Shown: positions 5,473 through 19,932 of the stretch, piece after piece
Position numbering within the stretch: position 1 is the first letter of the stretch
How the letters are laid out: each line of letters starts with the position of its first letter
NCBI GenBank assembly: GCA_035541455.1
Contig: DATKNH010000006.1
Coordinates: forward strand, 1 to 33,119
Length of the DNA stretch: 33,119 bases
Origin: Syntrophorhabdales bacterium
GTDB taxonomy: Bacteria; Desulfobacterota; Syntrophorhabdia; Syntrophorhabdales; WCHB1-27
Direction of reading: 5' to 3'
The notes under the pieces: generated by a model
Databases searched by the model: none
Told to the model about the DNA's origin: nothing
Seen by the model: only the letters and a program-made list of their open reading frames with translations
Translations under genes and position numbers: made by a program

Positions 5473-6150
5473 TCAAAAAATTCCCGGTATCAGGTGCCAA
5501 CGCACTTTGGCGCAATAGTCTGCATATCCCTGAAGGTCCCGCAGAAGTACTTTCTCCTCATTTACAATCCGGAAATAAAGGACGAGTGTGAAGAGGGGAA
5601 TGAGCAGCAATGCCCACCACGAAGCAAGCGCGAGCGGCGTACCCACAATCAGAAACAGGGCGCCGGAGTACATCGGATGCCGGATGAGTCCGTATATGCC
5701 GGTCGAGATCACCTTTTGCCCTTCTTCGACACGGACATTCGCAGCTGCATACGTGTTTACCTTTGACACGAGATAGAAGATATAGAACGAGACCGCGACG
5801 AGGGCGTCTCCGAAGATCGAGACATACCATGGCACGTTCGACCAGCCAAAACGGAAATCAAGCGGCGGCACAATGATGAGCGCACCAAAGGAAACATAGA
5901 GAAAGAACATAATTACCTTTTGCGCAGGCTCCTTTTCGTGAGAAATGCCAGCTTCAATACGTCGCCTCAGCAATGCCGGATCGTGCTTTGCTAGATACAC
6001 CGTGTATGCGAGGGAGCAAACAATAAACGTGGCAACGTATGCCCATCCCTGCCAATACGTAAGCGTCCCTGCTGGAATAAAGAGAAGAGCAAGGATGACA
6101 ATCGTCCCGATAACGGATGAGCGGATGATGTGAGGAAGAGTTACTTTCAT
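5473..6150 (-). CDS. Isoprenylcysteine carboxyl methyltransferase-like membrane protein (copy A)
   Basis: A 225-residue polytopic membrane protein of the ICMT/phospholipid-methyltransferase superfamily. Hydrophobic segments lie at about 10-30, 36-54, 78-97, 108-129 and 162-195. The S-adenosylmethionine-site signature RHPMY is at 157-161, followed by the conserved acidic pair EE at 198-199 and the family-type C-terminal LIPGIF. In relatives these motifs bind the methyl donor in the membrane. The substrate of such bacterial proteins is usually unknown, and nothing here points to prenylated proteins. The ATG at 6150 was chosen because it puts the YW pair at residues 32-33, exactly as in the paralogue immediately upstream. 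The ribosome binding site is poor. The upstream gene ends 76 bp before it, so the two are probably co-transcribed. Confidence 0.85.
   Translation of the reverse strand: MKVTLPHIIRSSVIGTIVILALLFIPAGTLTYWQGWAYVATFIVCSLAYTVYLAKHDPALLRRRIEAGISHEKEPAQKVIMFFLYVSFGALIIVPPLDFRFGWSNVPWYVSIFGDALVAVSFYIFYLVSKVNTYAAANVRVEEGQKVISTGIYGLIRHPMYSGALFLIVGTPLALASWWALLLIPLFTLVLYFRIVNEEKVLLRDLQGYADYCAKVRWHLIPGIF
5476..5517. repeat. 3'-end direct repeat shared by the two methyltransferase-like genes, copy A
   Basis: About 42 bp covering the last 14 codons match 6229-6271 with one visible mismatch, although the two genes differ widely elsewhere. The second copy is the 3' end of the gene at 6227-6901. Confidence 0.7.
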
Positions 6151-6226
6151 AATACGAAATATAATTCTTTTTAGAGTCTTGAAAAAATGTACCGTTCCGG
6201 AACCTATTTTAAACTGGCAGCTGATT

Positions 6227-6901
6227 CTAAAAAATTCCCGGTATAAGGTGCCAACGCACTTTGGCGCAATACTCCGTATAGCCGGGTAAATTTTCGGTAA
6301 GGAATTGTTCTTCATCAAACAGCCTCCAGACGAGGCCGAAGATCGCGAGGACAGAAGCGATGAGCCCCCAGTAGGAACCGAGCGCCAAGGACACTCCGAT
6401 AGAGTAAACCGCAGCGCTTGAATACATCGGATTGCGTACGATGGCGTAGGGGCCGGTGGTGATCACTCTTTGGCCAGTGGTGATCTCGACGGTCGTGGAG
6501 CCAAAAGAGTTTTCTTTGAATACCCGGTAGACCATCCAAAGACTCACTATAATCAGGAGGTCGCCGACTATGGAGAGCCATGATGGCACGTTCGACCATG
6601 CGAAACGACGGTCCAGGCCGGGAATAATGAACGCAGCGATAGCCGGAAAGCCCGTGCACAACACTATAATCTTTTGAATGAGTCGTTGCTCCGCAGTCGG
6701 GCCACCCTTTGTTCTGTTTTCGAGAAGTATCGGATCTCTTATTATAGAAAGCGTCAGAAGAACACCTGATACGGCGCCTACCCCGAGATAGACCCATGCC
6801 TGCCAATAGTTGGTCGTCCCGGCCGATACAAGCAGAGTGACGCCTATGAGGACAGAGGCCATGGCGAACCCGAACCACATTTTTGCCTTAGGATTCTTCA
6901 T
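6227..6901 (-). CDS. Isoprenylcysteine carboxyl methyltransferase-like membrane protein (copy B)
   Basis: A 224-residue paralogue of the downstream gene, by eye about 40% identical and alignable almost without gaps from residue 1 (YW at 32-33 in both). It has the same pattern of hydrophobic helices, the acidic pair EE at 197-198 and the C-terminal LIPGIF. Unlike copy A, its donor-site motif reads RNPMY (156-160): the usually conserved His is replaced by Asn, so activity or donor binding may differ. The last 14 residues are identical to copy A and the DNA there is almost identical, much closer than the rest of the gene. An upstream in-frame ATG at 6919 would add six residues. Neither start has a strong Shine-Dalgarno sequence, and alignment with copy A favours 6901. 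Confidence 0.85.
   Translation of the reverse strand: MKNPKAKMWFGFAMASVLIGVTLLVSAGTTNYWQAWVYLGVGAVSGVLLTLSIIRDPILLENRTKGGPTAEQRLIQKIIVLCTGFPAIAAFIIPGLDRRFAWSNVPSWLSIVGDLLIIVSLWMVYRVFKENSFGSTTVEITTGQRVITTGPYAIVRNPMYSSAAVYSIGVSLALGSYWGLIASVLAIFGLVWRLFDEEQFLTENLPGYTEYCAKVRWHLIPGIF
6229..6271. repeat. 3'-end direct repeat shared by the two methyltransferase-like genes, copy B
   Basis: This is the partner of the 5476-5517 repeat. Similarity stops abruptly upstream, where the codons for CAKVRWHLIPGIF give way to diverged sequence. That suggests local gene conversion or a recent recombination end-point. Confidence 0.7.
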
Positions 6902-7015
6902 GACGTAATGATAATACATCCAGAAAGTTAGTGAACAGTCACAAAGTGAAGCGAGTAATAATCAAACGTACAGGATTCTCACGAGTAGCAGATTGCAGTA
7001 GAGGAATTGCGACAG

Positions 7016-11510: not shown

Positions 11511-13562
11511 TCATGCGGGCGTTGCCTCACACACAAAAAGCCTGTTGGGATAGCCTCCCGAGACAGGGTCCCATACTGAATCGCTGGTGAGCAGATTGAT
11601 ATTGGGCTTGTTGTCTGTCGGATTTCCCCAGCCGAAGTCGACGGCGATCATACCGGGCCCAACATCTTCGGTAATCTTTGCCTTCACGATAATCTTTCCT
11701 CGAGGCGATGCCAACTCAACAGGGGTATCCTGCTGTATGCCTCTCTTTTGAGCATCAGCCGGATGTATGCTGAGAAGAGGGTCAGGATAGATCCTGCCGG
11801 CAGTGGGAAGATTGACCAGCTTCGTATGCACGTATTCGGCGGTCCTGCGCGTAGTGCCGAGGAGACTGTACTCCCTCGAAGCAGAGGCGTCCCCGAGAGA
11901 TTCCTCCGGGGACCGGAATGCCGGCAGAGCGCCGTAATTGGCCTTCTTGCATCTCTCAGAATAGCACTGAACCATGCGCGAAGGCGTCTGGAAGCCATCC
12001 TTTTCATACTTTCTGTAGACCATGGGCGAAGAGGCGTAGACTATCTGATTCTTCCTCAAATCATCCAGGGTGACACCCGCCGGCTTGACTGCAAAGTTGA
12101 TCCATTCCTCAGCGTTCTTGAAAGGGTAGCTCTGCTCGATGCCCATCCTCCGGGCGAGCTCATACTCGATCTCGAATACTGACTTCGATTCGCCGAGAGG
12201 CTCGACGAGTTTTTCCCGAAGCGCAAAGAACCCGCCACGGCTGCTCGAGTAGGCCCGGTAATCAACTGCTTCCAGGTCTGCGGCAGCCGGAAGAACGAGG
12301 TCTGCCATTTCAGTCGTTCCGGTCGGAAAGATATCAAGCACCATCAGAAAATCCAATTTCTGCAACGCCTGCATCGTGCGATTCTGGTTCGCCTGAACAA
12401 GTACAGGATTAGCGTGGTGCACAACCATGGCCCTGGGCCTGCCGGGCGCATCCTTGAGCAGCGCCTCTTTGATGAAAGGAAACGGCACCTGGGGAAATAA
12501 CGGGAACACTTCTTTGCCCATCGATTTCTTTTCCAGCTTTATCGTGGGCAACGCTGCCTGAGCAGCAAAGGGGAAGAAGACATTCCCACCCTCTTTCTCG
12601 ATATTGCCGGTGAGCGCGATCAACAGACAGATGGCTCTCGCCATGTCCACACCTGCGGTATGCATGTCGATCCCGTTCCCGTCGACGATCGTAGCTCCAT
12701 CGGCTTTTGCATAAAACCGCGCGATCTCTCTTATCTTCCCTGCAGAGACTGATGTGATCTTTTCTGCCCACTCGGGGGACGTAAGCTCCACGTGTTTCCT
12801 GATGTCATCAAAACCAGCCACCCATCGTTTCACGAAGGCTTCGTCGTAGAGTCCCTCGGCGATGATGGTGTGAGCCATTGCCAAGCCCAACGCCACGTCT
12901 GTGCCAATGTTGGGCCGGATCCAGTCATCAGCCAGCGGAACCGATTCCGAGTGAACCGGATCAACGACGATGATCCTTGCGCCTCTCTCCTTGAGCCGGG
13001 CCGGGATCTGGTGAAAGCCGTCATATGCAGCGTAGTTGCTGTACCGCGTCGTGTTCACCGGGTTCAAAGCCCAGAATATTGCGAGTTTCGTGTGCTCGTA
13101 ATCAGGCTCAGGTCTCCCCCCAAAGGCATCCATGAACGCGATTCGTCTTGGAACATGACAGAGATTCGCCGCGCCCGTAAGATTGGGAGAACCGTAGGCG
13201 CCCATGAACTGCAGGAACCCGTCCCTGCCTCCGTACGTGACCGGAGCTCCATGGCAATGCACAAGGCTCTCGGGTCCGTAACTCTCCCTTATCTTCGCAA
13301 GCCTGTCCGCAGCGATATCGAATGCTTCATCCCAGGTGATTCGGCTGAACCCTCCCTTTGTTTTCTTGCGCGGATAGGCAAGGCGCTCCTTTGACTCCAG
13401 CATCGGCTTTATCGCCTGGGCTTTGGGACACAGGTAGCCTTTGTTCACCGGATGGTCCGGATCTCCCTCCACGCGGGAGACGCGGCCGTCCTTGATATGG
13501 GCCTTGATGCCGCAGTTGGCATGGCAGAACCCGCACAGTGATCGCACAACTTTTTCATTCAT
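11511..13562 (-). CDS. Molybdopterin-dependent oxidoreductase, single-gene, [4Fe-4S] containing
   Basis: A 683-residue DMSO-reductase-superfamily catalytic subunit. The N-terminal CxxCx3C...C set (10, 13, 17, 45) binds a [4Fe-4S] cluster. The molybdopterin core follows, with GAANLCHVPRR, whose Cys is the likely Mo/W ligand. The dinucleotide-binding C-terminal domain (about 575-680) ends PNRLF. There is no Tat or Sec signal, so it should be cytoplasmic. No ferredoxin-like or membrane subunit is encoded next to it, unlike most PsrA/PhsA-type enzymes, so its electron partner is unknown. Similar lone enzymes include acetylene hydratase and hydroxylating or transhydroxylating types. The substrate cannot be assigned. 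Its promoter lies back to back with that of the flavin oxidoreductase. Confidence 0.9.
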   Translation of the reverse strand: MNEKVVRSLCGFCHANCGIKAHIKDGRVSRVEGDPDHPVNKGYLCPKAQAIKPMLESKERLAYPRKKTKGGFSRITWDEAFDIAADRLAKIRESYGPESLVHCHGAPVTYGGRDGFLQFMGAYGSPNLTGAANLCHVPRRIAFMDAFGGRPEPDYEHTKLAIFWALNPVNTTRYSNYAAYDGFHQIPARLKERGARIIVVDPVHSESVPLADDWIRPNIGTDVALGLAMAHTIIAEGLYDEAFVKRWVAGFDDIRKHVELTSPEWAEKITSVSAGKIREIARFYAKADGATIVDGNGIDMHTAGVDMARAICLLIALTGNIEKEGGNVFFPFAAQAALPTIKLEKKSMGKEVFPLFPQVPFPFIKEALLKDAPGRPRAMVVHHANPVLVQANQNRTMQALQKLDFLMVLDIFPTGTTEMADLVLPAAADLEAVDYRAYSSSRGGFFALREKLVEPLGESKSVFEIEYELARRMGIEQSYPFKNAEEWINFAVKPAGVTLDDLRKNQIVYASSPMVYRKYEKDGFQTPSRMVQCYSERCKKANYGALPAFRSPEESLGDASASREYSLLGTTRRTAEYVHTKLVNLPTAGRIYPDPLLSIHPADAQKRGIQQDTPVELASPRGKIIVKAKITEDVGPGMIAVDFGWGNPTDNKPNINLLTSDSVWDPVSGGYPNRLFVCEATPA

Positions 13563-17873: not shown

Positions 17874-17902
17874 TTGACTTGGTGAAGCGATTCGGGTAGA
17901 TT
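17874..17902 (+). promoter_or_regulatory. Promoter of the Tat/haem C_GCAxxG protein
   Basis: TTGACT (17874-17879), a 17-bp spacer and TAGATT (17897-17902) match the sigma-70 consensus at 5/6 and 4/6, about 50 bp upstream of the ATG at 17952. Confidence 0.4.
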
Positions 17903-17951
17903 CAACGTCTGCGCCTATGGCTCTGCGACTATAGTATCAGGGGAGGTAACA

Positions 17952-18758
17952 ATGAGTGTTTCAAGAAGAGACGTGATAAAAGGCGGGGGAGCAATGCTGC
18001 TCGGTCTCATGGGAGCTGGCTCTGTAGTAAAACCGGGTAAGCTTTTTGGTGCGGGCGATGCGCAGGAGAAGTCCTCCCTTGAACTACCGTGGCCCTACAA
18101 GAGGTTGAACCCTGAAGCAGCCGCTGAAGCCGGCTACTACGGCTACTATGCGGGCGCCTGTTGTTACGGAGCCTTCGACAGCATCATCGGCGAGCTTCGC
18201 AAGGAGGTAGGTCACCCCTACACCGTGATCCCGACTGCAATGATGGTGTACGGCGAGGGAGGAGTGGCAAGCGAGGGGGCGCTCTGCGGCGCGCTGAACG
18301 GTGCCGCTGCGGCAATATTTCTCGTAACCGGCGGACTGGACAAGAAGTCAAGAGAGCCTGCGTTTGCACTTATACAGGAGCTTTACAAGTGGTACGAGCA
18401 GGAAGGGCTTCCCGATTACAGGCCAAAAAAGCCTAAGTTCGATATCGTCAAGTCGGTCTCCCGTTCCACTCTCTGCCACGTTTCAGTGAGCAGATGGTGC
18501 AAGACGTCCAAGTTCAAAGCGTTCTCCAACCAGAGGTCGGAACGATGCGGGTGGCTGACAGCTTCCGTGGCCAAGCGCACAGTGGAACTACTGAACAGTT
18601 ACGCGGAGAAAACATTTAAACCTGCCCATGCGATTGCGGCCGAGGCCCAGTCGTGCAGGCAATGCCATGACCAGGGCGGGGCGATCGAGAACACACGCGG
18701 GATGATGGACTGCGGAGGTTGCCATTTTACCCCGCGGAGCAAGCATCCGAAGATATAG
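17952..18758 (+). CDS. Tat-exported C_GCAxxG_C_C family protein with two haem c motifs
   Basis: A 268-residue protein. The N-terminus SRRDVIKGG with a hydrophobic run is a twin-arginine signal, so it is exported folded. The body carries C_GCAxxG_C_C features, with a vicinal Cys70-Cys71 pair in GACCYGAF and Cys112 in LCGALNGAAAAI; family members are proposed redox proteins. The C-terminus adds two CxxCH haem c motifs, CRQCH (235-239) and CGGCH (254-258). Cytochrome c maturation occurs in the periplasm, in agreement with the Tat signal. Several more cysteines lie between the two parts. GGGGAGG precedes the ATG. Together these suggest a periplasmic electron-transfer or redox enzyme. The partner and substrate are unknown, and it appears monocistronic. 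Confidence 0.85.
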   Translation: MSVSRRDVIKGGGAMLLGLMGAGSVVKPGKLFGAGDAQEKSSLELPWPYKRLNPEAAAEAGYYGYYAGACCYGAFDSIIGELRKEVGHPYTVIPTAMMVYGEGGVASEGALCGALNGAAAAIFLVTGGLDKKSREPAFALIQELYKWYEQEGLPDYRPKKPKFDIVKSVSRSTLCHVSVSRWCKTSKFKAFSNQRSERCGWLTASVAKRTVELLNSYAEKTFKPAHAIAAEAQSCRQCHDQGGAIENTRGMMDCGGCHFTPRSKHPKI

Positions 18759-19428: not shown

Positions 19429-19932
19429 TTAGCTTACCCTCTCAAGCCCCTCGTAGACTATCTCGAACGTTTCCTGCGCAACCTCGTTACCCTTCCCTTC
19501 AAAACTCGGCGCCTGGTATTTGGCCGGCCAGGCATTGATCAACTTCCAGGCGGCGATATCGTTACCTTCCATATCGAGGCCAGTAATCGTAATGTTTCTA
19601 GGATCGACCTTTCCCTGGACGCCAGAATTGAACCATTCATAAAGGTCTTTCGACTGAGTGAGACCATACTTTAAGATCAGCGGACCGTATTTCGGTATTC
19701 CTCCCAGCTGCCTTACCTGGAGAGGATCAGCCCCTTCCCGGTATTCGATGCACTCAATTGCCGCCTCAATGCCTGACACGCAGCAGGGTCTTGTCTCTGG
19801 AAGACCATCTATCTCGACTCTGTAACGGCAATTCCTCAAAGGGTCTTTGCGTTGTAGGCTCATAAGAATTCCTCCCACGATCAGAATAACAACCACAATC
19901 ACCAACAGAAGAAGAACTAGCGGATGTCCCAT
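19429..19932 (-). CDS. T4 gp19-type tail tube homologue with N-terminal transmembrane anchor
   Basis: A 167-residue protein. Residues about 35-167 match the gp19/contractile-injection tail tube family: YRVEIDGLPE, VSGIEA...CIEYREGADP, a KYGPLILKYGLT strand, LYEWFNSGVQG, the WKLINAWPAKYQAP segment and the closing GNEVAQETFEIVYEGL. In phages and extracellular injection systems this protein stacks into the inner tube. Unusually, residues 4-25 form a strongly hydrophobic helix followed by a basic stretch, so it should be held in the inner membrane with the tube domain on one side. Four cysteines, including a Cys-Cys pair, are also atypical. No sheath, baseplate, spike or ATPase gene is in the window. 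The ribosome binding site is weak. The repeat at 19938-20139 starts within six bases of the ATG. Confidence 0.85.
   Translation of the reverse strand: MGHPLVLLLLVIVVVILIVGGILMSLQRKDPLRNCRYRVEIDGLPETRPCCVSGIEAAIECIEYREGADPLQVRQLGGIPKYGPLILKYGLTQSKDLYEWFNSGVQGKVDPRNITITGLDMEGNDIAAWKLINAWPAKYQAPSFEGKGNEVAQETFEIVYEGLERVS

Follow-up and report, generated by a model that had tools for sequence, protein, structure and literature searches.

A split-Soret-type di-haem cytochrome c gene in a Syntrophorhabdales genome and a probable selenocysteine form among its relatives

The gene described here lies on a stretch of 33,119 nucleotides of contig DATKNH010000006.1 (the window, by which we mean the whole stretch that was analysed) and encodes a protein that almost certainly belongs to the wider split-Soret cytochrome c family. 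To the overall reading, which adds to this assignment a proposed course from folding to electron exchange, we give a probability of roughly 0.85. An earlier note on the same DNA had described a C_GCAxxG_C_C (PF09719) domain, a Tat-type signal and a two-haem tail joined in one protein, and all three are there: the domain passes the Pfam gathering cut-off (50.1 bits against 27), the signal carries the sequence SRRDVIK and the tail the motifs CRQCH and CGGCH. However, the emphasis of that note on an unusual fusion did not survive the comparison with known proteins. The architecture is already known, and the window gene taken on its own is an ordinary annotation. The features of the gene are collected in Table 1.

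Table 1. Features of the split-Soret-type cytochrome c gene and its upstream region (positions in the window)
Feature	Position	Strand	Basis or remark
Split-Soret-type di-haem cytochrome c gene	17952..18758	+	Complete ORF, ATG start, 268 aa
Probable ribosome-binding site GGGGAGGT	17940..17947	+	From sequence; ends 4 nt before ATG
Sigma-70-like promoter match, 9/12	17874..17902	+	Consensus only
Tat-type (twin-arginine) signal, from residue 1 to roughly residue 35	17952..18056	+	Motif, RR conservation
Cys70 (TGT)	18159..18161	+	Cys in 56/59 distinct proteins; TGA in other three
Cys112	18285..18287	+	Cys in 60/60 rows including 1H21
Cys175 and His176	18474..18479	+	Cys175 in 60/60 rows; His176 in 56/56 haem-bearing proteins, proposed haem axial ligand
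Cys199	18546..18548	+	Cys in 60/60 rows
Haem motif 1, CRQCH, residues 235-239	18654..18668	+	Sequence, alignment
Haem motif 2, CGGCH, residues 254-258	18711..18725	+	Sequence, alignment
His265, C-terminal	18744..18746	+	Retained where two haem motifs are present; proposed axial ligand of haem 2

The only significant sequence match in the PDB was 1H21, the split-Soret cytochrome c of D. desulfuricans ATCC 27774 (ssc, Ddes_2150), which aligned over residues 46-260 with an E value of 7.8e-44, the other two rows having E values of 0.75 and 0.81. Confidence in the AlphaFold2 model of the window protein is modest (mean pLDDT 60.8, with the haem tail, residues 232-268, below 50), and with this model 1H21 was the sole Foldseek match at E<=0.001 (E 1.1e-8). 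It was also the only one of the 95 chains aligned with VIA-align to exceed a Z of 5 (Z 17.9, with an rmsd of 5.5 over 199 residues), the next row being at Z 3.4. The split-Soret equivalog model of NCBIfam, NF047622, matched residues 4-260 with 210.7 bits (E 2.6e-62); as this match begins at residue 4, the model also covers the signal region. Since the score does not reach the cut-off of 400, the protein is placed in the wider split-Soret family only. PF09719, moreover, matches 1H21 itself (residues 18-235, 52.1 bits), and as 1H21 agrees with the window protein in both sequence and fold, the supposed fusion is in fact the standard split-Soret architecture.

The D. desulfuricans protein shares with that of the window the fold, the PF09719 domain, the four conserved cysteines (C70, C112, C175 and C199 in the family alignment), an LCH motif and the two C-terminal CxxCH motifs. 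However, the two proteins are 38% identical in the Foldseek alignment and stand in separate clades of the tree. The D. desulfuricans protein has an N-terminal iron centre, is a homodimer, binds its haems by bis-His ligation and shows a split Soret band; Abreu et al. in 2003 and Matias et al. in 1997 are reported to have dealt with the metal centre, the dimer and the bis-His haems of split-Soret cytochrome c. To our knowledge this cytochrome has been crystallised and yet has no settled role. A passage of PMC8840924 speaks of the stacking of its haems.

The window protein has its Pfam domain in common with the C_GCAxxG_C_C (seleno)proteins (PF09719/TIGR01909), and the naming of this domain in the earlier note stood as far as the Pfam family is concerned, but the "GCA" motif appears to lack its cysteine, that region reading GEGG in a weak alignment (E 0.14). 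The TIGR01909 model of C-GCAxxG-C-C (seleno)proteins gave 30.5 bits, and the window protein therefore falls short of its cut-off of 47.4. A short C_GCAxxG_C_C member encoded in the same genome (L107) has, unlike the window protein, neither a signal nor a haem motif. No second copy of the window protein was found in its own genome at E<=0.001 in a whole-protein search. The promoter scan gave three matches against a shuffle mean of 0.6, and the terminator scan a single match, within the gene, against 1.3 in shuffles. Scans of the window found no repeats or tRNAs, and a search of a plasmid collection returned no match.

In order to describe the family, 59 distinct proteins were compared, the window's included, after removal of the window's own copy (L001), of identical proteins and of two fragments, L010 and L068. 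For the conservation columns 1H21 was added as a 60th row, and loci L077-L106 lie outside the 59. Two CxxCH motifs follow the domain in 39 of these proteins, one in 17 and none in three, and since at least one motif is present in 56 of the 59 the tail is not a product of chance. Cys112, Cys175 and Cys199 are invariant, and the Cys70 column holds Cys in 57 of the 60 rows and a gap in three (L048, L064 and L066). His176, kept in every haem-bearing protein, is replaced by Thr and Ser in the tail-less L057 and L058, respectively; L054, the motif of which reads CMQCD and which has no CxxCH, nonetheless keeps it. All 39 two-haem forms have a histidine beyond the last haem motif, versus one of the 17 one-haem forms. 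We propose His176 and this C-terminal histidine, which is His265 in the window protein, as candidate axial ligands of the haems.

The tree was built from 63 rows, with L078-L081 added and L054 omitted. In it the one-haem forms make up one branch (support 100/99) and L057 and L058 another (100/100), so that the covariation of the histidines rests on few events. The window protein pairs with L002 (100/100), apart from 1H21. The earlier note had regarded homologues without the CxxCH tail as a case against its reading. Such homologues do exist, as do those with a single motif, but they do not refute it, because the one-haem forms and the L057/L058 pair are side branches (L054 lies outside the tree). 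L057 and L058, encoded in genomes G246 and G288, are haem-less and tail-less relatives with a twin-arginine start, and both genomes also encode a two-haem split-Soret copy (L034 and L040). The natural one-haem and haem-less forms serve as comparisons, with His176 and His265 as testable haem ligands.

The motif SRRDVIK occupies residues 4-10 of the window protein. Its two arginines are present in 9 of 9 rows when the window protein is set beside eight relatives, and a twin arginine is found in 57 of the 59 distinct proteins; as for the two exceptions, L046 has an in-frame stop just upstream and L060 shows an HRR that lies beyond the limits of the script. With 13.8 bits the window protein is below the Pfam TAT_signal cut-off of 22.7, and the genome has two TatC genes. 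From the motif alone we infer that the protein would be exported by the Tat pathway. Predicted Tat signals on split-Soret cytochromes are already in print, and passages of PMC4429474 and PMC3623810 describe them for archaeal proteins and for Shewanella SO0939, which in this respect are like the window protein.

The earlier note had made its reading depend on cytochrome c maturation genes, and these were found in the genome. Two CcsB-type genes scored 256.4 and 268.2 bits with TIGR03144 (cut-off 187.6), one of them placed directly after ResB and the other adjoining hemA. By this gene content (CcsB-type and ResB) cytochrome c maturation in the window genome is of System II, the search for System I having covered only PF01578, both of whose two matches are CcsB-type. 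Judged in the same way, the cell should be able to make the protein.

We suggest the following course for the window protein. The N-terminal helical domain would fold in the cytoplasm and take up a metal centre on Cys70, Cys112, Cys175 and Cys199, the folded protein would be exported by Tat, and in the periplasm its C-terminal tail would receive two haems through the System II proteins. Pairing of two chains would then bring four bis-His haems into a stack at one end, and electrons would pass between the metal or thiol site and the haems. The analysis itself shows the homology, the fold, the motifs and their conservation, and the genes for maturation and export; the metal centre, the dimer, the ligands and the electron path are what we infer for this protein. 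Periplasmic electron transfer is plausible, and a soluble periplasmic electron-exchange protein is the role to which we lean, with some reserve. A passage of PMC4215793 gives mutants in the split-Soret genes of D. alaskensis as having no fitness defect under the conditions tested.

Neighbouring genes were compared using ORFs of at least 90 aa at 13 loci and in positions 8000-28500 of the window. The window gene is flanked on the left by a DUF885 gene on the opposite strand and on the right by a 140-aa ORF, for which no Pfam match was found either in the window genome or in that of L002. These two neighbours and a gp19-family gene are common only to L002, the relative from the same genus. At other loci, a histidine kinase and a sigma-54 regulator are placed just upstream of the homologue in L069 and L076, and an ArsR-family gene adjoins it, on the upstream side in L072 and on the downstream side in L076. 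A PF03601 gene is found just downstream of the homologue in L069 (8999-10528) and in L003 (1774-3192), where the proteins, of the YeiH-type putative sulphate exporters, scored 93.0 and 76.5 bits with TIGR00698 (cut-off 232.6). We regard this neighbour as a lead towards sulphur compounds. Since these annotated neighbours are all absent beside the window gene, we name no general operon partner, and neither Pfam nor the neighbour comparison revealed a gene for a redox partner beside it.

The gp19-family gene mentioned above (19429-19932, reverse strand) belongs to the T4 gp19/contractile tail tube family (PF06841, TIGR02241), has an N-terminal hydrophobic stretch and is kept in L002; Pfam detected no further tail families among the 32 window ORFs scanned. 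The reverse strand of the window also encodes a protein of 596 aa with PLD-like domains (PF13091; 20202-21992), a molybdopterin oxidoreductase of 683 aa with an Fe4S4 domain (11511-13562), two overlapping phospholipid-methyltransferase-like ORFs (PEMT/ICMT; 5473-6919) and, at the window edge, a PemK/MazF-like toxin-family ORF (PF02452; 32781-33116).

In the window gene Cys70 has an ordinary cysteine codon, TGT. In seven other genomes an in-frame TGA was found at the corresponding position, in eight locus rows (L048:1702, L064:1690, L066:1708 and L077-L081), of which L048 and L077 are one gene; L048, L064 and L066 are the three TGA proteins among the 59. When the order of genome G186 was searched with the L048 protein, matches were obtained in 88 of 146 genomes, with the TGA form in five of these, and G173 and G400 bring the genomes with this form to seven. 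In this survey loci were scanned with a motif filter, the stop column was the sole basis for judging most matches that had no locus, and some matches were fragments short of the site. A match in G432 with one TGA and two TAA was not flagged as a TGA form. SelB was above its cut-off in all three TGA genomes checked (G186, G173 and G400); the cut-off is also passed by the window genome, with two matches, and by G406, and 2 of 14 control genomes pass it.

In the 16 codons that follow the TGA, five close forms agree fully in their codon in 9 of 12 constant columns other than Met and Trp, against 17 of 116 such columns elsewhere in the same five forms (Fisher p 2.4e-5). Codon identity just after the TGA is as expected of a selenocysteine insertion element inside the gene. 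The hairpin energies after the TGA were not clearly better than those of shuffles (z 0.42, 0.12 and -0.77; -0.40 and -1.04), and the case for selenocysteine therefore relies on codon conservation. We consider that the TGA at the Cys70 position probably encodes selenocysteine. The branch with the seven selenocysteine rows has a support of 86/84, is not starred, has long branches and includes L067, which has Cys; both one origin followed by loss and two separate origins are possible for this form. In the window genome itself, the gene of the short PF09719 protein L107 (1456-1896, contig C149 of G000) carries a TGA in frame, at residue 18, which probably also encodes selenocysteine. A literature search returned no paper joining "selenoprotein" and "split-soret". 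C-GCAxxG-C-C is listed as a selenoprotein family in two reviews, PMC9312934 and PMC13188914, in table rows that make no mention of haem; the example given in those rows, WP_012158890.1, may or may not be a split-Soret cytochrome.

The probable selenocysteine form in relatives favours a reactive site at Cys70, and with it a second reading, in which split-Soret cytochrome c is a redox enzyme with Cys70 as a catalytic thiol (in some relatives a selenol), or as a ligand of a metal that binds the substrate, while electrons are fed or drained by the stacked haems. We hold this reading to be tentative. The TGA in seven genomes, the SelB of those checked, the codon identity after the TGA and the TGA of the short L107 protein all speak for it, and selenocysteine is, as general knowledge has it, usually found at reactive sites. 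Nevertheless this position is occupied by Cys in most homologues, as it is in the window protein, selenocysteine might serve merely as a metal ligand, the hairpin energies are no clearer than stated above, and the TGA residue of the short protein (P0001 in the alignment with the split-Soret set) lands a few positions off Cys70 in a weak alignment (E 0.14). The broader statement, that split-Soret cytochromes are thiol/selenol redox enzymes in which a reactive Cys70 is wired to the stacked haems and one branch has selenocysteine, appears to us a shade more doubtful. All three members of the selenocysteine branch that fall in the phylum sample carry dsrA.

Homologues of the window protein were found in 5 of the 46 genomes of the order, its own included (E<=1e-10), and in 49 of 395 genomes sampled from the phylum (E<=1e-8). 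Such a patchy distribution could mean that the lineage can do without the gene or is losing it, which we find very unlikely, as the frame is intact, the conserved Cys and His and both haem motifs are retained, and G044, the sole other genome of the genus searched, also has the gene intact, at 79% identity. The window genome, which its nearest named relatives place probably in the Thermodesulfobacteriota, has a dsrA match (E 1.9e-170). In tallies counted by hand, with three draws of 395 genomes taken as the same and with no correction for kinship, dsrA matches were commoner in holders of a homologue (33 of 49 vs 157 of 346, Fisher p 0.006), and so were NrfA-type matches (26 of 49 vs 93 of 346, Fisher p 0.0004). 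According to a passage of PMC5701242, nitrate gave higher levels of ssc in D. desulfuricans than sulphate did, and NO lowered them. A link to nitrate was considered and rejected, the PF02335 match of the window genome being weak (176.6 bits) and five genomes with near relatives of the window protein (G001, G022, G124, G237 and G352) having no NrfA-type match at E<=1e-40.

Least credible of all is that a C_GCAxxG_C_C domain and a cytochrome tail were newly fused in this lineage to serve extracellular electron transfer: domain, signal and haem motifs are all present and a passage of PMC3623810 lists Shewanella SO0939 as extracellular, which is a prediction only, but the D. desulfuricans protein has the same architecture, two haem motifs recur in 39 of the 59 proteins, and no outer-membrane conduit family is among the Pfam matches of the 32 window ORFs.

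We retain the reading of the window protein as a split-Soret cytochrome c. The novelty sits in its relatives, with their probable selenocysteine form, and not in the window gene. The natural exchange of Cys70 for an apparent selenocysteine marks a likely reactive residue, and if the enzyme reading were true, the split-Soret cytochromes would amount to a family of selenium-containing haem proteins, and the bond made or broken by their Tat-exported domain in the periplasm would be one of sulphur, selenium or a metal.
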